Source: a bacterium (GTDB taxonomy: Bacteria > ARS69). Taken from it: a stretch of 53,809 nt of DNA. The stretch is taken from assembly GCA_025774805.1 (NCBI GenBank), contig JALGZR010000020.1, positions 1 through 53,809 of the forward strand, read 5' to 3'. The notes beneath the pieces were generated by a model. That model was not told the origin of the DNA. It searched no databases and saw only the letters and a program-made list of their open reading frames with translations. Shown in pieces: positions 40,206 through 49,979 of this stretch (position 1 is its first letter; each line of letters starts with the position of its first letter). Made by a program: the position numbers and the translations under genes.

Positions 40206-43200
40206 ATGCCAGGCTCCACTTGGGATCGGGTGAAGGAGATCTTCCACGCCGCACTCTCCCGGCCGGCGGAGGCGCGCTCGGCGTACGTCGCCCGGGCCTG
40301 TGGAGACGATGATCGTCTCCGCGCGGAGGTCGAGGCGCTTCTCGAGGCGCACGAGAACGCGGGGACTTTCCTCGGCGAGCCGAGGCGCGGCGCAGAGGCG
40401 GGACAGGACCGCTCTGCGTCCCTCGGCGAAGGACCCGGCACCCGGATCGGTCCCTACGAGCTCCTCCAGCTCATCGGAGAAGGCGGCTTCGGCTCGGTCT
40501 ACCTGGCGGAGCAGGACCGGCCGGTGCGCCGCCGCGTGGCGCTGAAGATCATCAAGTTGGGCATGGACACAAGGGAGGTCATCGCCCGCTTCGAGTCCGA
40601 ACGCCAGGCGCTCGCGATCCTGGACCATCCCAACATCGCCAAGGTGTTCGACGCCGGTGCGACAGAGCAGGGACGGCCGTACTTCGTCATGGAGCACGTG
40701 CCGGGCGTCCCGATCACGGACTACTGTGACCGGCACCGTCTGACCACCCGGGAGCGCCTGGAGCTCTTCATTCCCGTCTGTCAGGCCATCCACCACGCGC
40801 ACCAGAAGGGGATCATCCACCGGGACGTCAAACCGGGGAATACGCTCGTCGCGATCCAGGACGGGAAGCCGGTCCCGAAGGTGATCGACTTCGGGGTGGC
40901 GAAGGCGACGCATCGACGTCTGACGGAGCGGACGGTCTTCACCGAGCAGGGGCGCTTGATCGGCACTCCCGCCTACATGAGTCCGGAGCAGGCGGAGATG
41001 ACCGGACTCGACGTCGACACGACGACCGACGTGTACTCCCTCGGCGTGCTCCTGTACGAGCTGCTCGTCGGCGCTCTGCCCTTCGATCCGCATCAGTTGC
41101 TGGACGTCGGCCTGGAGGGGATGCACCGGATCATCCGGGAGGTCGACCCGCCCACGCCCAGCGCGCGGATCACGACCCTGGGGGATGGGGTCGGGGAGGT
41201 CGCGACCCATCGGCAGACGGTTCCCGAATCTCTCGTGCGGCAGATCCGGGGGGAGCTCGACTGGATCACGATGCGGGCCATGGAGAAGGACCGAACGCGG
41301 CGATACCCATCGGCCTCGGAGCTCGCGGCGGACATCCGCCGACACCTTCAGGACGAGCCGGTGCTCGCCAGCCCTCCCGGTGCGGCCTACCGTTCCCGGA
41401 AGTTCGTCAAGCGCAACCGAATCGCCGTCACGGCCGGATCCTTGGTGGTCGCGGCGCTCGTCACGGGCCTGGCGGTCTCGATGATCGGGTTCGTTCAGGC
41501 GAGCCGTCAGCGCGATCGGGCGGTGGAGGCCGAAGGGCAGGCCACGCGGCAGGCGTTTCTCGCGAACATCGCCGCCGCGGAAGCGGCCCTGGCCACGAAC
41601 GAGATCTCGGCCGTTCGACGGCACCTCGACGCGGTACCGGCCGATCTTCGCCACTGGGAATGGCGCAACCTCGATGCCGAGATCGACGGGAGCCTCGCGG
41701 TCTTGCGAGGGCACGAAGACCGGGTCTACGGCGTGGCGTTCAGCCCCGACGGCAAGACCATCGCCTCGGGATCGCGGGACAAGACCGTGCGTCTATGGGA
41801 TGCGTCGTCCCTCGAGGAGCTTGCCGTCTTTCGAGGGCACGAAGGCGTGGTCACCTCGGTGGCCTTCGGCCCCGGCGGCGCCCGGGTGGCCTCCGCGTCG
41901 AGCGACCGGACCGCGCGCCTCTGGGACGTCTCCTCCGGGGAAGTGTCGGCCGTCATGCGGGGCCACGAGGACGAGATTCTGTGCGTGGCGGTCAGCCCCG
42001 ACGGGACGCTGCTGGCGACGGCGGGCTCGCAAGATCAGACTATACGGCTGTGGGACACGGCCGCCGGTAACGAGCTTGCCGTCCTGATCGGCCACGAGAA
42101 CCGGATCTTCTCCGTCGCCTTCAGTCCGGACGGTTCGCGGTTGGTCTCGGCATCGCAGGTCGAGAACTCCGTGCGCATCTGGGATGTGACCAGCGGTGAG
42201 GACCTGCTCGTCCTCCCCGGGAGAGTCGGCGCGGTGTTCTCGGCGGAGTTCAGCCCGGACGGCAAGAAGGTGGCGGCCGCGCTTATGGATCAGACCGTCC
42301 GAATCTGGGACGCGTCCACGTTCGAGGAGCTGGCCATTCTGCGAGGGCACGCGAACAGCGTGGACCGCGTGGCCTTCAGTCCGGACGGAGAACTCCTGGC
42401 GTCGGCGTCGAGGGACCGAACCGTGCGCCTGTGGGACGTGTCCACGGGCCTCCAACGGGACGTTCTGCGAGGGCACGAGGGGTCCGTCGAAGCGCTGGCC
42501 TTCAGCCCGGATGGAACGCGTCTGGTATCCGCGTCGTGGGACCACACGCTCCGGGTCTGGGACGTGTCCGCCGGTACGTCGACGACTCTGCGAAGGCATG
42601 AAGAGGAGTATCCGTGCTATGACGCGGCGGCCTTCAGCGCGGACGGCACGCGCCTGGCGGCGATGAACGGATCGTCCGTCCGCGGCGACAACGCGGTCCA
42701 CATCTGGGACACGGCGACGGGCGAGGAGCTCGCCGTCCTTCGGGGCCACGAGGAATGGGGCATGTCCGTCGCCTTCGACCCGACCGGGGCGCGGCTCGCC
42801 TCGGCGGCGGTGGACAACATGATCCGCATCTGGGACGCGGAGACCGCCGAGTGCCTCTTGGTCCTGAAGAAGCACGAGGGAGGTGTCCCATCGGTGGTCT
42901 TCAGCCCCGACGGGAAGCGGCTGGCCTCCGCTTCGCACGACGAGACCGTGCGCATCTGGGACGTGTCGACCGGCGAGGAGCTGACCGTCCTGCGAAGACC
43001 CGAGGGCTCGACGTGGCCGGCTCTGGCCTTCAGTCCGGACGGCCTTCACCTGGCCTGCGCGTCGTATGACAAGACCGTGCGCATCTGGGACACCTCCTCG
43101 GGTGAGGAGTCGAGCGTCCTTCCGCATCCGGATCGCGTCACTGCCGTGACGTTCAGCCCGAACGGAACGCGGCTGGCCTCGGCGGTCACGGGCGACAACT

Positions 43201-44258
43201 CGATACGCATCTGGGATGCGTCGACCGGAGCGGAATTGGCCGTCCTCCGCGGTCACGAGCACACCATCCTCTCCCTGGCGTACACCCCGGACGGAACGCG
43301 TCTGGCCTCGGCGTCCATGGACCGGACCGCGCGCATCTGGGACGCGAGCCGCGGTGAGCTCCTCCGTGTTCTCCGGGGACACGAGGCGTGGGTCACCTCC
43401 GTGACGTTCGACGCCGACGGCACGCGCCTGGCCTCGTCGTCTCGCGACGGGACCGTGCGCATCTGGCACACGGAACGGTTCCGGGTCCGGGATCGGAAGC
43501 GTCAGGCGATACTCGCGGCGCGATCGGCCGTGAAGCCGGTCGTCGAAAACCTCTGGGAGCAAACCGTCGACGCGAAGTCGATTGCGCGGCGACTTCGTGG
43601 AGATGCTTCCCTCACGGAACGGCAGCGCCGAGCCGCCTCGAGTCTGCTGCTCCGCAAGTCCGCACGGCTCCAGGAGTATGTCGATGCGGTGTTCGCGAAG
43701 AAGGTGTTCACCCACGACGTCGTGACGGAATTGACGGCGGACCCCTCCCGGGACCCGGGCTTCCTGTACAAGGCGGTCCGGCGGGCCCGCGCGACCGGCG
43801 ACGAAGCATCGCGGATCCATAGCGACAGTTGGAATCTGGTCCGCTTCCCCGGCGGGGATGCGGAATCCTACGAGATCGGATTGCGCGGGGCGGAAGCGGC
43901 GGTCGCCCGGGAATCGGAGAACGTCGTCTTCCTGGGCACGCTGGGCATGGCCCAGGTTCGGAACCGCCGCCATGCAGAAGCATTGGCCACGCTCGCCCGG
44001 TGCGAGCAGTTGCGCCGCGAACATGAGCTCGCGAGCGTTCCCCGCGACATGGCCGCTCAAACCCTGGCGCTCTTCGGGCTCGGGCGGACCGAAGAGGCAC
44101 GCCGCAGCTACCGGAGGCTCGAAAAGATCATGCGGGATCCGGTGGAGGCGTGGGTCTACTACGAGGAAGAGACGGCGCTGTTCGAAGAGTGCCGGCGTCT
44201 GCTCGCGGGGTCCGATGTTCGGACCGGATCGTCGGAAGACACCGGAGCCGGGGAATAG
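40206..44258 (+). CDS. Transmembrane serine/threonine kinase with 14 WD40 repeats
   Basis: 1350 aa. Residues ~82-380 are a Hanks-type kinase: [23 protein letters not shown], the catalytic [11 protein letters not shown] (His205, Asp207) and DFGVAK with APE-like AYMSPEQ, so it should be active. One membrane helix ([20 protein letters not shown], near residue 420) is followed by 14 WD40 repeats (about 497-1085), from [20 protein letters not shown] to [18 protein letters not shown], enough for two seven-bladed propellers. A helical, TPR-like C-terminal region ends the protein. Repeats 5, 8 and 12 are diverged or carry insertions. The propellers are outside the membrane if the kinase is inside. 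Confidence 0.93.
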
Positions 44259-44295
44259 CGGAACGCAAGACGCCGAACCGGCGTGCAAAGGCGCT

Positions 44296-44315
44296 CCGCC
44301 GGATTGAACCGGCGG
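44296..44315. terminator. Hairpin between kinase and secreted-protein genes
   Basis: CCGCCGG, ATTGAA, CCGGCGG: a perfect 7-bp stem 37 bp past the kinase stop. No T-tract follows. Together with the independent ribosome-binding site of the next gene it hints that the next gene is transcribed separately. Confidence 0.4.
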
Positions 44316-44399
44316 GGGACGATCCCGTACGATCGGCCCCGCGGCATCCGCCTCAGGGATGCCCGAGAGACGCGTTCTCCCACCGTAAGGAGATCTCCC

Positions 44400-46388
44400 G
44401 TGTCCGCCTCCGTTCCCCGGGCGATTCCGCCCCTGGTTCTCACCCTTCTGATCGTCTCCGTTCCTCCCGCCCTCGCCGATCCCGTGATCAGCGAGATTCG
44501 TATCGACAATCCGGGCGATGACACCGACGAGTACTTCGAGCTGGCGGGTGCCCCCTTCGAAAGCCTCGACGGTTTGGCCTACGTGGTGATCGGGGATGCC
44601 GATTACTCCGCCGGGCACTACGGGGTGGTCGAGACGTTCATACCGCTCGACGGATTCACCCTCGGCGCCAACGGCTTCCTGGCGATCGCCAACGATCCCT
44701 TCCTGGCCGTCTGCACGGGCTACTCACCCGTTGCCTCCTTTGCCAAGTTCGAGAACGGCGACAACGTCACGCACCTGCTCGTCCGCGGCGCCTCCGGATT
44801 GCTCGGGGAGGACCTCGACTGGGACGACGACGGCACCCTGGACATGGAGCCCTGGTCCGAGATCCTCGACTGCGTCGCGCTGATCGAGCGGACCTCGGGC
44901 GGGGATCCGGTGTACTGCGATCACACGGTGGGCCCCGACCGCAAACACACCCTGCCCATCGGAGGACCGCGCGAGTACGTGCCGGCCCACGTCGCGCGGT
45001 GCGGACCCGGCTGGTACGTCGGGAATCTTTACGGGGATCCTCCGTGCGCGAACGACTCCCCGGGCGGGCCCAATGTCATCTGCGGCAACGTCCCCCCCCG
45101 GGTCCCCGTGCTCACCTCCCGGCCCTGCGCCCCCGAGTCGACCGACCCCGTGGTCGTCGAGGCCACCGTCCTGGACTCCAACGGCGATCTGAGCACGGTG
45201 TTCCTCCACTACAGAGTGTACGGTGCGCCGGACTACGCAACGGTCGCGATGGCCCCCGCGGGAGGGCAGACGTGGGCGGCGACGATCGGGCCGTACCCGG
45301 ACCAGACCCTCCTGGAGTTCTACGTGCAGGCGACGGACGTCGCGCAGAACACGACGACGAACCCCTCCTCCGCGCCCTCGTATCCGAGATCCTTTCGGAT
45401 CGGACTCACGCCCATCCCGGAGATCCAAGCCTCCACGGGACCGGTCGACGAATGCCTCTACCCTTCCGATCTCGACGGGCAGTCCGTGAACGTGACGGGG
45501 ATCGTCACCCACCGGGCCGGGGAGTTCAGCCCCCGGTTCTTCTACATCCAGGAGGGAACCGAGCCGTTCTCCGGCCTGAAGGTCTACGTGCCGGCCGAGG
45601 ACTTCGTTCCCGAGCTCGGCGATCGCGTCGTGGTCTCCGGAGTCGTCGAGGAGCGGCGATGCCAGACGCAGCTCCGCCTCTTCCGGGGATGCGGGCAGGT
45701 CGTCGGCAGCGAGCCCGTTCCGATTCGCACGCTGGCCCACATGGAGGAGATCAACACCGAGCCGAACGAGAGCATGCTCGTCACGGTGGACGGGCCGATC
45801 ACGGTCACCAGCGCATGGGACACCACGCTGGCGCGGAACGGGAGAGAACCGAGCTTCCTCCTGCGGAGATTCGAGATCTCGGCCGGCATGTACAGCGTCT
45901 GGGTCGGGGATGACACGTTCTACCCGGACGGCCTGGGCTACTCCTACGAACCGAACATCCAGGACGGGCTGCGGTGGATCACGGGGATCGTGGGCATGTC
46001 CCCCGAGGGCGCGTCCTACGGGATCCTCCGGCTCGAGCCGCGTCGCGATCCCGACGTGTGGCTCCGGACCTTGGACGTTCCGGATGAAAGCGAGCCGGTG
46101 GTCGTCGACGCGCTGCGTCTCGATCCGGCTCGTCCCAGTCCCACGCGCGCCGTCACCACGATCGGGTTCGAGGTTCCCGTTGCGGGGCGCGTGACTCTGC
46201 GCATCTACGACGTGGCGGGCCGTCTCGTGCGCGAGCTCTTCGAAAGGGAGTACGAGGGTCCTGCGCGCGGAGAGACCGTCTGGGACGGCCGCGACGACGC
46301 GGGACGACCGGTCGCCGCAGGCGCGTACCTGTACCGCCTGGAGGTCGGCGAGCGATCGGCGACCCGGAAGATCATGCTCCTGCGGTGA
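44400..46388 (+). CDS. Secreted lamin-tail-like protein with sorting tail
   Basis: 662 aa from the GTG at 44400, which has AAGGAG 7 nt upstream. A signal peptide ends at PPALADP. Residues ~25-130 resemble a lamin-tail domain (VISEIRIDNPGDDTDEYFEL, GLAYVVIGDADYSAG), then an Ig-like section (about 230-330), an OB-fold-like section (VNVTGIVTHRAGEFSPRFFY, LGDRVVVSGVVEERRC) and a FlgD-Ig-like sorting domain at the end (IYDVAGRLVRELFE, AAGAYLYRLEVGERSATRK). Probably exported and surface-attached or released. Function unknown; lamin-tail domains often accompany extracellular nucleases, but no nuclease motif is visible. Confidence 0.82.
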   Translation: MSASVPRAIPPLVLTLLIVSVPPALADPVISEIRIDNPGDDTDEYFELAGAPFESLDGLAYVVIGDADYSAGHYGVVETFIPLDGFTLGANGFLAIANDPFLAVCTGYSPVASFAKFENGDNVTHLLVRGASGLLGEDLDWDDDGTLDMEPWSEILDCVALIERTSGGDPVYCDHTVGPDRKHTLPIGGPREYVPAHVARCGPGWYVGNLYGDPPCANDSPGGPNVICGNVPPRVPVLTSRPCAPESTDPVVVEATVLDSNGDLSTVFLHYRVYGAPDYATVAMAPAGGQTWAATIGPYPDQTLLEFYVQATDVAQNTTTNPSSAPSYPRSFRIGLTPIPEIQASTGPVDECLYPSDLDGQSVNVTGIVTHRAGEFSPRFFYIQEGTEPFSGLKVYVPAEDFVPELGDRVVVSGVVEERRCQTQLRLFRGCGQVVGSEPVPIRTLAHMEEINTEPNESMLVTVDGPITVTSAWDTTLARNGREPSFLLRRFEISAGMYSVWVGDDTFYPDGLGYSYEPNIQDGLRWITGIVGMSPEGASYGILRLEPRRDPDVWLRTLDVPDESEPVVVDALRLDPARPSPTRAVTTIGFEVPVAGRVTLRIYDVAGRLVRELFEREYEGPARGETVWDGRDDAGRPVAAGAYLYRLEVGERSATRKIMLLR

Positions 46389-46426
46389 GGGAGATCCGCC
46401 CCGGAGCGCGAATAGTGCAACCCTCA

Positions 46427-46570
46427 TCGAGGAAAGGAAGGGAGGGTCCGGAGGCTCGCAGCGCTGCTGCATGCGAAGACGGAGCTCGAGGCTGCGGCCA
46501 CCACTCCGTCGGGGCAAGGCCCCCACTCCCACGCTCTCCAACTCCCCTCCGGACCCCCTTCCTTCCTCGA
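46427..46570 (+). ncRNA. RT-associated structured RNA candidate closed by a 25-bp stem
   Basis: 46427-46454 (TCGAGGAAAGGAAGGG then AGGGTCCGGAGG) pairs with 46546-46570 (CCTCCGGACCCCC then TTCCTTCCTCGA): 25 base pairs with a 1-nt and a 2-nt bulge. Inside the ~91-nt loop are three smaller hairpins: 46458-46470 (GCAGC/GCTGC), 46478-46510 (GACGGAG/CTCCGTC, with an inner GGC/GCC) and 46511-46523 (GGGGC/GCCCC). The stem ends 10 nt before the RT start and abuts its ribosome-binding site. It begins 38 nt after the preceding stop. The layout, a branched RNA closed by flanking complementary arms just upstream of an RT, is retron-like, but no long msd hairpin is present. It could alternatively be a translation-control leader or an attenuator. 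Confidence 0.65.
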
Positions 46571-46580
46571 AGGCTCGCCG

Positions 46581-47918
46581 ATGACGTTTCTTGATCGTCT
46601 GGGAGATCCCGTTCGGATCCGGCGGCAGCTCGACCGGCTGGCGGCGAACCGGCGGCGGACGGGCATCCGTCTCTCCGGGAACGGCGATCCGTCGCTGGCC
46701 CGGCTTCTGTTCCGCGCCCCGGAGCTGGCGCGCCGGCTGGGACGTGACATCCGTCACGGCGCGTATCGCCCCGCGCCCGCCCGGATCCGCCCGGCCGAGC
46801 TCGACAAGCTCCGCGATCTCTGCGTGTTTCGCCCCGCCGATCTCATCGTTCAGGGAGTGCTTGCCGGCTTGCTCTCCGAAGCCATGGAGCCTCTCCTCCC
46901 GGCCCGGCTCTTCTCCTACCGGCGCCGCCGGTCCTCCTGGATGGCGGTGCGTGACTTCGCGTCGTACGTGCGGGAGCACCGCCGCGCGAACCCCGACCCG
47001 CAATCCCGTGGACTGTTCGTGCTGCGCGCCGACGTCCGAGACTACGGTGAGTCCATTCCGATGGACGAACGGTCGGCGATCTGGACGCAGGTGGGCCGGA
47101 TGCTCGGACTTTCTGCAAACGATGACGCGTGGCCTCTGGTGCGCGAGCTGGTGCGGCCCGCGATCCTCACCGGCGAGGGCGCCGTGATCCGCCCGGAGCG
47201 CGGCGTCGCCACCGGCTCCCCGGTGGCCACCGCCCTCACGAATCTCTATCTGACGGGTCTCGACCGGCATCTACAGGAGATCGCCGGAGGGTTCTACGCG
47301 CGCTACGGCGACGACTTCCTGTTCGCCCATACCGACCCGGAGGTGGCTCGCGAGGCGCGGCGCCTGGCCACGAGGTATCTGGAGGAGCACGGTCTCGAGC
47401 TGAACCGGGAGAAGTGCCGGCTGCTCCACTTCAACGGCGCCGGACGCCCGGGTCCGGAAGGGAGCGGCCTGCCCGGGAGCTCGCGGGTCACCTACCTCGG
47501 ATGCAACATCAGCTTCCGGGGCACCGTCGGTCTCTCCGAGCCGAAGCGGCGCGAGACGTTGCGGGAGATCCGGCGCCGGGTTCAGCGGACGGCCGAGGTC
47601 GTCGCCCTCCGCGAGCCTGACGAGCAAGGCCGGCTCCTCTGCGCCACGGTCGATACCGCGCTCGATCCGCGCGTCGAGACCTCGGTTCCCGCGAGCGCGG
47701 TCCTGGCGGCCGCGGTCACGGACCGGCGGCAGCTCAAGGACTTGGACTTCCGGATCGCCCGCACGATCGCCGAGGCGCTCGCGGGCCGGCACGGTTCCCG
47801 ATCCTTCCGGCGCTACCCCTACCGGAAGCTCCGTGCCGAGTGGGGACTGACGTCGCTCGTCGTGCAGAGGAACCGGGGTCGGGTGTCGGCGAGGTCGGCG
47901 GAGAAGGGGGCGGCATGA
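46581..47918 (+). CDS. Reverse transcriptase, unclassified (not retron, not DGR by signature)
   Basis: 445 aa. GAAGG lies 7 nt before the ATG. RT blocks are complete: fingers (DKLRDLCVFRPADLIVQGVL, residues 75-94, and FSYRRRRSSWMAVRDF), motif A RADVRDYGESIPMD with Asp151, motif B GVATGSPVATALTNLYL (208-224), catalytic RYGDDFLFAH (YGDD, 242-245), motif D GLELNREKCRLLHF (271-284) and motif E VTYLGCNISF (303-312). A thumb-like helical C-terminus ends with RKLRAEWGLTSLVVQRN. There is no NAxxH or VTG as in retrons, no maturase X/zinc or endonuclease domain as in group II introns, no RNase H or integrase. Motif A has Gly in place of the aromatic residue before the Ser-Ile. Catalytic Asp residues are all present, so polymerase activity is expected. 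The stop overlaps the next ATG. Confidence 0.92.
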   Translation: MTFLDRLGDPVRIRRQLDRLAANRRRTGIRLSGNGDPSLARLLFRAPELARRLGRDIRHGAYRPAPARIRPAELDKLRDLCVFRPADLIVQGVLAGLLSEAMEPLLPARLFSYRRRRSSWMAVRDFASYVREHRRANPDPQSRGLFVLRADVRDYGESIPMDERSAIWTQVGRMLGLSANDDAWPLVRELVRPAILTGEGAVIRPERGVATGSPVATALTNLYLTGLDRHLQEIAGGFYARYGDDFLFAHTDPEVAREARRLATRYLEEHGLELNREKCRLLHFNGAGRPGPEGSGLPGSSRVTYLGCNISFRGTVGLSEPKRRETLREIRRRVQRTAEVVALREPDEQGRLLCATVDTALDPRVETSVPASAVLAAAVTDRRQLKDLDFRIARTIAEALAGRHGSRSFRRYPYRKLRAEWGLTSLVVQRNRGRVSARSAEKGAA

Positions 47919-49912
47919 GCGGCCTGGACCGGTGGCTCGCCCGGGAGGCGGCACGGGAGCGGCGACGTCCCGTCCTGGAGGAGTGTCTGATCGGCGGGCG
48001 GGCCGGCCGGTACGTCCTCCACCGGCTCCGCCTTGTCGCGGGAGCCCGGCTTCTCGGCTACGCGGTGCACGTCGTCGAGTTCCTCTTCCTGTTGCGGGTC
48101 TTCACCGACGAGGGGCTCGGTCTCTCCTTCGCCGCGCGCAACTTCGTGCTCCTCGCGGGCGCGTCTTGGTGGGGCGCGCTGGAGGTGTTGCGAACCCGCA
48201 TCCGGCGGGAGGATCCGAATCCTGCCGACCGTGTCGAGGTCGAGCGCTGGCTCACGCTCTCGTTGATCGCCGCGGTGGGACTTCTCGCCGTGACCGGAGT
48301 CGGGCTCGGGGCGGCCTGGCTCCGGAGCGGGCGACCTCCCGGCATCCTCGAGCTCTACTTCGGGATCACCTTCGCCCGCCTCTCGGTCGACCTCGTCGCG
48401 CGGACGCTCTACTCGGGGATCTACGCCCGGCGGCGGGTCTACCGGCCGGCCCTCTGGATTCTGGGGCTGGAAATGCTCGGACTGGCCAGCGCTCTTCTCT
48501 TCTGGGGCGTGCTCGGACTGTGGGCGTTTCCCGTCGCGCTCGCGATTTCCACGGCGGCCTCCCGTGCCGCCACGGTCCACTTCACGGCCCGCGCCTACCG
48601 GATGTTGCGCATCCCCGTTCCCCGGTGGACGCGCCTTCGCCGTCCGCGTCTGACGAGCTCGGATCTCGGGGCGATGGCCGTCGCCGGCGCATCGAACGCC
48701 GCCACCCGGCTGGGCTCGGTGCTGGTCCTGTTCCTGGTGCTGCGGGGGGTGCGGGGCGCGGAGGCCCTTCTCCAGTGGCTCCACGTTCTCGCCCCACTGC
48801 TCGCGACCGCCGGGTCGTGGGCCCAGGTCTTCTATCCCGATTTCAAGCGGTTGGAGGACCGGGCCGCCGGCGCCCTTCGGCGGAGACTCGAGAGGGCGCT
48901 CGCGCGGAGTAGCTTCGTCGTGGGAACGGCGCTCGGCGCGCTCGCCGTCGGCACCTCCCTCGGCCTCACCGGCCGCGTCCACCCCGAGGTCCTGGCGACC
49001 GGGCCCCTGCTCGTCGTGCAGTCCTACGTCGGGCAGCTCCACCTTCGCTTTTTCGCCCAGGACCGTTTCCGACGGCTCCTCGCCGGAGGGCTGGCTCTCA
49101 CGCTCGGCATTCCCCTGCTCGGGCTCGCGATTCCGGGGGAGGGGCAGGCGCCGCCGGCGGTGAGTCTCGTGCTCGGAACGGCCGCCGCGATCGCCCTGTC
49201 CGGGGTGGTGATGCGTGCCTGGCCCTTCGCCGACGGGCGCCGGCAGCCGCACGGAGAGGGAATCTGGGCGTGGCTGGAGTCGTTGGCGGCGAATCCCGGG
49301 CCGGTCCGGATCGGGCGCGTCACGATGGGGGATTCCCGGGCCTTCGAGCGCGCGGCGGTGCTCGCGCGAATCGAGGAGTGTCTGGAGCTCGCGGGGAAAG
49401 CGGTGGAACGGGGAAGGACGATTCTCTGGTTCGAGACCGGGGATCGCCCGGTCATGAATCCGGATCAAGTGCTGGTATGGGGCGCGGGCCTGATCGACGA
49501 CGTTTGCGTTTCGGACCCGCAGCCCTCCGGAAGGGAGGCCGCGCGGAGCGAGGAAGGGGGCCGTAGGATCGGGAGGCCCCGCGAAGGAAGCGTCGAACCG
49601 ATCCCCGCCCTCGTGGCCCGGCTTCGCGCCGCGTGCCCCGGCGGGCTCGTCGTCGACCTGGAGTCCGGAACGTGCGACCGCGCCGTCCGTGACCTCTCTC
49701 CCCGGGAGCGTCAGGACGTGTGGCGCCGCGCCCGCCTGGACGCCCTCGGAAAGCGCGTCCGGACGCCCGACTCCCCCTTTGAGGTGCGCTCGGTCGTGGA
49801 CGGCGGCGAGATCCGCCTCCTCTTCCTCGTGCCTCGGAAGCTCGACGCCGCGCAACGACGGCTCTGGGCCGAGACGGTGAGGTCGGGCAACTGGGTGCGG
49901 GCCGTGGCCTGA
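47915..49912 (+). CDS. RT-linked flippase-like polytopic membrane protein with soluble tail
   Basis: 665 aa. The ATG lies in a 4-nt ATGA overlap with the RT stop, so the two are translationally coupled. Residues ~40-435 contain about 11-12 membrane helices (e.g. 41-62, 72-92, 112-135, 145-165, 178-213, 249-277, 283-305, 333-352, 360-380, 388-406, 414-433), with a layout and Arg-rich loops like polysaccharide flippases of the MOP/Wzx type. The last ~210 residues are soluble (SRAFERAAVLARIEECLELA, GRTILWFETGDRPVMNPDQV, RLLFLVPRKLDAAQRRLW), with no family I recognise. It may be an effector or anchor for the RT and its RNA. The open frame extends upstream to 47840, inside the RT gene, but the overlap start is more plausible. 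Confidence 0.82.
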   Translation: MSGLDRWLAREAARERRRPVLEECLIGGRAGRYVLHRLRLVAGARLLGYAVHVVEFLFLLRVFTDEGLGLSFAARNFVLLAGASWWGALEVLRTRIRREDPNPADRVEVERWLTLSLIAAVGLLAVTGVGLGAAWLRSGRPPGILELYFGITFARLSVDLVARTLYSGIYARRRVYRPALWILGLEMLGLASALLFWGVLGLWAFPVALAISTAASRAATVHFTARAYRMLRIPVPRWTRLRRPRLTSSDLGAMAVAGASNAATRLGSVLVLFLVLRGVRGAEALLQWLHVLAPLLATAGSWAQVFYPDFKRLEDRAAGALRRRLERALARSSFVVGTALGALAVGTSLGLTGRVHPEVLATGPLLVVQSYVGQLHLRFFAQDRFRRLLAGGLALTLGIPLLGLAIPGEGQAPPAVSLVLGTAAAIALSGVVMRAWPFADGRRQPHGEGIWAWLESLAANPGPVRIGRVTMGDSRAFERAAVLARIEECLELAGKAVERGRTILWFETGDRPVMNPDQVLVWGAGLIDDVCVSDPQPSGREAARSEEGGRRIGRPREGSVEPIPALVARLRAACPGGLVVDLESGTCDRAVRDLSPRERQDVWRRARLDALGKRVRTPDSPFEVRSVVDGGEIRLLFLVPRKLDAAQRRLWAETVRSGNWVRAVA

Positions 49913-49949: not shown

Positions 49950-49979
49950 GGAGGCGAAGTGGCCAGTACCTTCGCCTCC
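49950..49979 (-). terminator. Intrinsic terminator facing the minus strand
   Basis: GGAGGCGAA pairs perfectly with TTCGCCTCC around a 12-nt loop. On the minus strand the stem is followed by TTTTCTTGTG, the classic T-rich tail; on the plus strand the tail is absent. This suggests a minus-strand transcript arriving from 50.0-50.3 kb, although no minus-strand gene is evident there. It may also act on the RT operon in reverse, which would be weaker. Confidence 0.6.

Follow-up and report, generated by a model that had tools for sequence, protein, structure and literature searches.

Locus organization and the membrane partner

The contig JALGZR010000020.1 of a bacterium of the GTDB lineage Bacteria; ARS69 (assembly GCA_025774805.1), analysed here over 53,809 nucleotides (positions 1 to 53,809 of the forward strand; hereafter the window), encodes a reverse transcriptase (RT) that is preceded by a structured intergenic segment and followed directly by a large membrane protein (Table 1). 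An earlier note, made from the letters of this stretch, had described the three as a module without match to known RT systems and had suggested that the RT may copy or bind the upstream RNA and the membrane protein may be an effector or anchor, as in two-part phage-defence modules. The RT open reading frame (ORF) is intact and contains the catalytic Asp of motif A and the YGDD of motif C (Pfam RVT_1, E 1.2e-15). No second RT copy was found in the source genome, in which the RT is single-copy. The predicted RT structure (pLDDT 89.6) has its nearest folds in DRT9 and the group II intron RT GsI-IIC.

The membrane ORF begins at 47915 within the RT stop codon (ATGA), which bears out the reported 4-nt overlap. 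Its flippase-like character is likewise reproduced by an AF2 model (pLDDT 82.7), in which residues 20-446 are predicted to adopt a MOP-flippase fold of two six-helix bundles, closest to WzxE (Z 24.0 over 382 residues) and followed by MATE and MurJ proteins (Foldseek, VIA-align). In this model the chain continues from about residue 460 into a separate alpha/beta domain that reaches the C-terminus. Pfam yielded no consistent match across the membrane-protein family.

Table 1. Features of the RT locus and their positions in the window.
Feature	Position	Strand	Basis
Upstream exported protein with FlgD-like C-terminal domain, 701 aa; uncertain module member	44283..46388	+	
Intergenic structured segment, putative non-coding RNA or RT leader	46389..46580	+	RNA fold and similar segments in homologues
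Closing stem (25 bp), 5' arm	46427..46454	+	fold; outer-helix test z 3.9
Closing stem (25 bp), 3' arm	46546..46570	+	fold
Hairpin 1	46456..46476	+	fold
Hairpin 2, apical GGC-UGCG-GCC	46478..46510	+	fold
Hairpin 3	46511..46523	+	fold
RT-like polymerase, 445 aa; motif A LRADVRDYGESIP, gate position Gly156, motif C FYARYGDD	46581..47918	+	
MOP-superfamily flippase-fold membrane protein with C-terminal soluble alpha/beta domain, 665 aa	47915..49912	+	

RT classification and family distribution

The absence of a match to known RT systems holds against the PADLOC and NCBIfam profile libraries, which support the conclusion that the RT belongs to no described class at the score of its members. The best named profile was RT_UG26 (PADLOC), with 78 bits for the window RT and 102 bits for the related locus L041 versus 500-511 bits for the UG26 members L011 and L012; most non-UG26 control RTs (group II-like and CRISPR-associated) reached 94-132 bits with the same profile, and membership in UG26 was rejected on a score far under that of true members and no better than that of unrelated RTs. 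The Drt and retron models also remained far under their cut-offs (retron_St85, 32 versus 235 bits). A retron RT was rejected on these scores and on the absence of both NAXXH and VTG from the 445-aa sequence; when the upstream region was compared with an msr-msd RNA, stem-enclosed hairpins were present, and no long msd hairpin and no Rfam family were recognised. A group II intron RT was rejected on a score of 81 bits against the cut-off of 300 for group_II_RT_mat (NCBIfam) and on the lack of an intron RNA by Rfam in the window. Neither the window nor 14 other loci contain the template/variable repeat pair of a diversity-generating retroelement (DGR), and domain 4 reads GVATGSPVA rather than the (I/V/L)GxxxSQ motif of DGR RTs (PMC4244168); a DGR was rejected on the lack of repeats. 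A CRISPR-associated RT was rejected as well, with no fused or adjacent Cas1 and neighbouring ORFs that encode the exported and the flippase-like protein.

In a tree of 55 RTs, the window RT and its relatives, including those of loci L041, L055 and L056, form one clade (SH-aLRT 98) with UG26 as the nearest sampled neighbour (support 82). This tree was built without Abi, most UG, DGR and retron references, which makes the placement of the family among RTs at large provisional. An initial search of 386 genomes with the UG26 profile had recovered one full-length relative (L035/L040, 28% identity, E 1e-33), whose membrane gene also overlaps the RT end. Thirteen further loci (L045-L057) were obtained by scanning 84,980 species genomes with alignment-derived patterns, the scan being widened by query alignments with masked (X) rows that served as search patterns only. 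A profile search of a 45-genome Bdellovibrionota-like phylum, which includes the contigs of L047 and L048, added L067-L069, and L041 was placed in the family by the tree and by inspection of its locus. The RT homologues share 28-40% identity and occur in many lineages, among them Myxococcota, Bdellovibrionota/Oligoflexia, Coxiellaceae, Legionellaceae and Hyphomicrobiales.

The RT gene is directly followed by a membrane gene in 17 loci (the window, L040, L041, L045-L054, L057 and L067-L069), that is, in every relative whose contig runs past the RT except Legionellaceae L056; the contig of L055 ends inside the RT. Because L051, L053 and L057 are near-copies, about 15 of the 17 loci are independent. 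The membrane genes encode about 640-760 aa, often with a 4-nt overlap, and that of L054 is cut by the contig end, its N-terminal part being encoded. A profile of the clade-A membrane proteins recovers those of L041 (E 1.5e-89) and L054 (E 4.4e-55), neither of which was used in building it.

The module is rare, as it was present in 6 of 381 genomes of one sample, five of them from one phylum. Both the RT and the membrane protein are absent from four other genomes of the source phylum that were examined. No relatives were identified on viral contigs, either in single-protein and alignment-based scans or in a DNA pattern scan; the one viral match (L044) was rejected as an ordinary RT that groups with control RTs in the tree. 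Plasmid and phage records contained only partial, low-identity matches to other RTs. A description of the RT-flippase pair is absent from the open literature searched, a search outside which the main UG/Abi survey lies.

Motif A of the family, D(V/I)xxY(G/T/D)(E/D)xI, aligns without gaps with that of solved RTs (DLEKFFDRV in GsI-IIC). Five residues beyond its Asp lies the aromatic steric-gate position of RTs, established for HIV-1 Tyr115. Of the 17 members with RT and flippase, 16 have Gly, Thr or Asp here and L041 has Phe; every aligned RT outside the family has Phe or Tyr. The residue is Phe in L055, where the partner is not visible, and His in the solo RT of L056. One of the two scan patterns demanded a motif A with G; the Thr and Asp members were recovered by motif C alone and L067-L069 by profile, and search selection thus does not explain this result. 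An alignment of 12 family members shows no variation in the catalytic Asp residues or in motif C. Members lacking the gate are predicted from sequence to accept ribonucleotides. In DinB2, which belongs to another polymerase family, gate loss is described as permitting ribonucleotides (PMC4176160).

Two lineages showed additional features. The Legionellaceae RT (L056, 332-1657) has no membrane gene and a diverged motif A in addition to its His at the gate. The myRT paper (PMC8934634) reports 46 unclassified RTs with a relative in Legionella longbeachae, and L056 may be of that lineage. In the Coxiellaceae loci, tRNA-like sequence lies just 5' of the RNA-RT module in opposite orientations (L051 7512-7700, L053 7536-7760, L057 7143-7800), with an apparent second partial copy in L057, which hints that a tRNA gene was the site of an insertion or rearrangement.

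Putative upstream structured RNA and predicted extracytoplasmic proteins

The segment 46389-46600 folds with a minimum free energy of -100.7 kcal/mol versus a shuffled mean of -83.7 (z -3.5), with none of 200 shuffles as stable, and DNA folding parameters give a z of -3.5 too. The structured segment of the earlier note is thereby confirmed, as is its closing stem of exactly 25 bp, which has two small bulges in the 5' arm, encloses three hairpins and a 22-nt unpaired stretch, and ends 10 nt before the RT ATG. The best outer helix of the window outperforms 40 of 40 shuffles (z 3.9). Rfam gave no match anywhere in the window.

Across the family, fixed intervals 5' of the RT fold more stably than control intervals (p 0.003), their best enclosing helix is stronger (p 0.0023) and the enclosed span is less variable (SD 8 vs 33 nt, p 0.016), the last test using control spans transcribed by hand and leaving out the clade-B loci except L040. 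Taken singly, the window, L048 and L049 stand out, whereas L046, L050, L052 and several others do not. An outer stem around about three hairpins, as in the window, is found in the folds of L045, L046, L048-L051, L054 and L056. The upstream fold was thus found to recur, with a stem-enclosed structured stretch preceding most of the homologous RTs, just as the same kind of membrane gene adjoins related RTs from several phyla; both recurrences had been proposed earlier as checks.

In the homologues, a hairpin with a YGCG loop sits in the middle of this arrangement. It ranks first or second of the whole locus in six relatives in a leave-one-out motif scan, in which the window site ranks 57th of 107,586 positions. 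Three of its four pairs show compensatory changes across eight loci, in counts that are biased towards structure by the choice of sites for pairing, and covariation support is local to this apical hairpin. The GGC-UGCG-GCC of the window was not significant by sequence on the plus strand, nor did a 45-nt covariance model for the apical hairpin region, from which the window had been excluded, pick out the plus strand of the window; its third-best match there overlaps the hairpin site on the minus strand, owing to the near-palindromic sequence of the hairpin. A MAFFT alignment of the whole RNA core yielded no consensus fold. Together, these results support an upstream structured RNA for the family as a whole, though not universally.

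A third protein, secreted or membrane-anchored, adjoins most loci. In seven of them (L041, L045, L046, L049, L050, L052 and L054) a predicted exported protein or lipoprotein lies next to the module and belongs to a family with a common cysteine-containing C-terminal domain and variable N-terminal parts, including EGF repeats (L049), ASH/Ig domains (L045) and a sub-threshold MopE-like match (L054). The four loci of clade B (L040 and L067-L069) contain a membrane-anchored, PLD-type protein in the same operon, with a PLDc_2 match in L040 and L067; those of L067-L069 are mutually homologous. The exported protein of the window stands where other loci encode their secreted partner and is not homologous to it.

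Other exported proteins were observed beside individual modules. L047 (11377-12969) and L048 (6140-7642 and 11261-12385) encode a different secreted family (about 500 aa, no Pfam match), which lies on both sides of the module in L048. One of the three close Coxiellaceae loci encodes a predicted exported protein 12 nt after the membrane gene (L051, 11191-12450), which resembles a GH18 glycosidase by eye. In the window, the inverted repeat GGAGGCGAAG...CTTCGCCTCC (49950-49979, no T run) lies just 3' of the membrane gene and may terminate the operon. Upstream, positions 40206-44258 encode a large Ser/Thr kinase with WD40 repeats, whose PADLOC PD-T4-6 matches fall on the kinase domain and look generic.

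Candidate functions and relation to known systems

We tentatively interpret the locus as an envelope-associated module, in which an RNA-associated RT is coupled to a MOP transporter and, in most lineages, to an extracytoplasmic partner, and we rate this reading somewhat below an even chance. Export or surface modification is our leading guess for its biological role, narrowly ahead of defence. The upstream RNA would fold as a long stem around hairpins and be bound by the RT, which appears catalytically intact and could make a short nucleic acid, most simply by copying this RNA or by priming on it. Most members lack the aromatic gate residue, from which we predict that ribonucleotides may be taken as substrates. 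The MOP-fold protein, whose gene is translationally coupled to that of the RT, would be the membrane partner of the RT and might move, or be switched by, the product or a ribonucleoprotein, possibly via its C-terminal cytosolic domain. On the outer side, a secreted lipoprotein or a PLD-like protein anchored in the membrane might act in most lineages. The most specific form of this proposal, in which a gate-less RT makes RNA or mixed RNA/DNA on the structured RNA, the flippase exports or displays the product and the lipoprotein or PLD protein handles it outside, is unlikely as a whole.

Several observations weigh against the envelope-associated module. L041 and L052 have no room for an RNA in the usual place, and the 22-nt unpaired stretch of the window is not conserved across relatives, so that no template region is pinned down. 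L041 has a flippase and yet Phe at the gate, and gate loss is hence not essential. The clade-B membrane proteins match those of clade A weakly and at the N-terminus (E 0.0013, probability 18%), and pairing in clade B is read from gene position, size and membrane helices. Finally, the shared secreted family was not found in the genome of the window in one profile search.

The strongest competitor is anti-phage defence, in which an RT-RNA complex would sense infection, as in retrons and DRTs, and the MOP-fold protein, as the membrane effector, would depolarise or block the envelope; we rate it almost as likely as the envelope-associated module. Base rates speak for it, since defence is the role of most bacterial RTs that are non-mobile and have an RNA partner, as do the sparse and patchy distribution (6/381 genomes), the nearest solved fold (DRT9) and the best named profile, a DRT class (UG26), albeit weakly, with scores that group II and CRISPR RTs attain as well. 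However, three genes flanking the module in the window and seven neighbours at related loci gave no defence match beyond generic kinase/PASTA matches to PD-T4-6 models, viral contigs hold no relatives, and a full-size flippase with a secreted partner is unlike known small membrane effectors. The two-part phage-defence module of the earlier note is not supported so far. Most loci adjoin a third protein, secreted or membrane-anchored, which is not homologous in all of them and in the window lies outside the shared family, and the small set of neighbouring genes scanned contained none recognised as a defence gene. Defence is possible, and nothing here points to it specifically.

Alternatively, the RT might mainly bind RNA and control translation of the flippase operon through the upstream segment, with polymerisation secondary or lost. 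The position of the segment immediately 5' of the RT start, its 3' arm 10 nt from the ATG, the translational coupling of the downstream gene and the changed gate residue are in line with such regulation, but the invariant catalytic Asp and motif C suggest selection for catalysis; we rate this third reading as improbable. A mobile or selfish retroelement (group II-like or DGR) with a passenger membrane gene is largely refuted and very improbable: both fold and profile scores relate the RT to those of group II, and the Coxiellaceae locus adjoins tRNA-like sequence, but the gene is single-copy, group II intron RNA (Rfam) and a template/variable repeat pair are lacking, and the same partner occurs across distant phyla.

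Bacterial RTs outside introns have so far mostly been defence machines or diversifiers. If the envelope-associated module is correct, a conserved RT lineage paired with a flippase-fold protein would bring the cell envelope into the scope of RT biology, and the usual absence of the gate aromatic, a residue tied to DNA synthesis in this fold, would be a natural test of how RTs choose between deoxyribonucleotides and ribonucleotides, a question directly testable with one purified enzyme. Non-mobile bacterial RTs with an RNA of their own are a known kind. Neither the profile libraries nor the open literature that we searched yielded a partnership with a MOP flippase or such frequent loss of the gate residue, and we see a small chance that the system is categorically new.

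Some retrons have membrane effectors, and the module shares with retrons a structured RNA with inverted-repeat ends 5' of the RT; it differs in an RT without NAXXH and VTG, in the lack of a recognised long msd-type hairpin and in profile scores far below cut-off. With group II and group II-like RTs (GsI-IIC) it shares the overall fold of RT and thumb (TM 0.70) and gap-free motifs A and B, in contrast to the missing intron RNA, the low profile score (81 vs 300 bits) and the replacement of the motif A Phe by Gly, Thr or Asp. The membrane protein resembles the MOP flippases WzxE, MurJ and MATE in the predicted fold of residues about 20-446 (Z 24 to WzxE), but lacks a consistent Pfam match, has an additional C-terminal soluble domain and is encoded by a gene coupled to an RT. 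DRT2, DRT9 and the UG classes are similar as stand-alone RTs with an intact YxDD and a structured RNA adjoining the gene, with DRT9 as the nearest solved fold and UG26 as the nearest sampled tree group (support 82). The family described here lies outside every UG/DRT profile class and is set apart by its MOP-fold partner, the frequent presence of a secreted partner and the usual loss of the gate.

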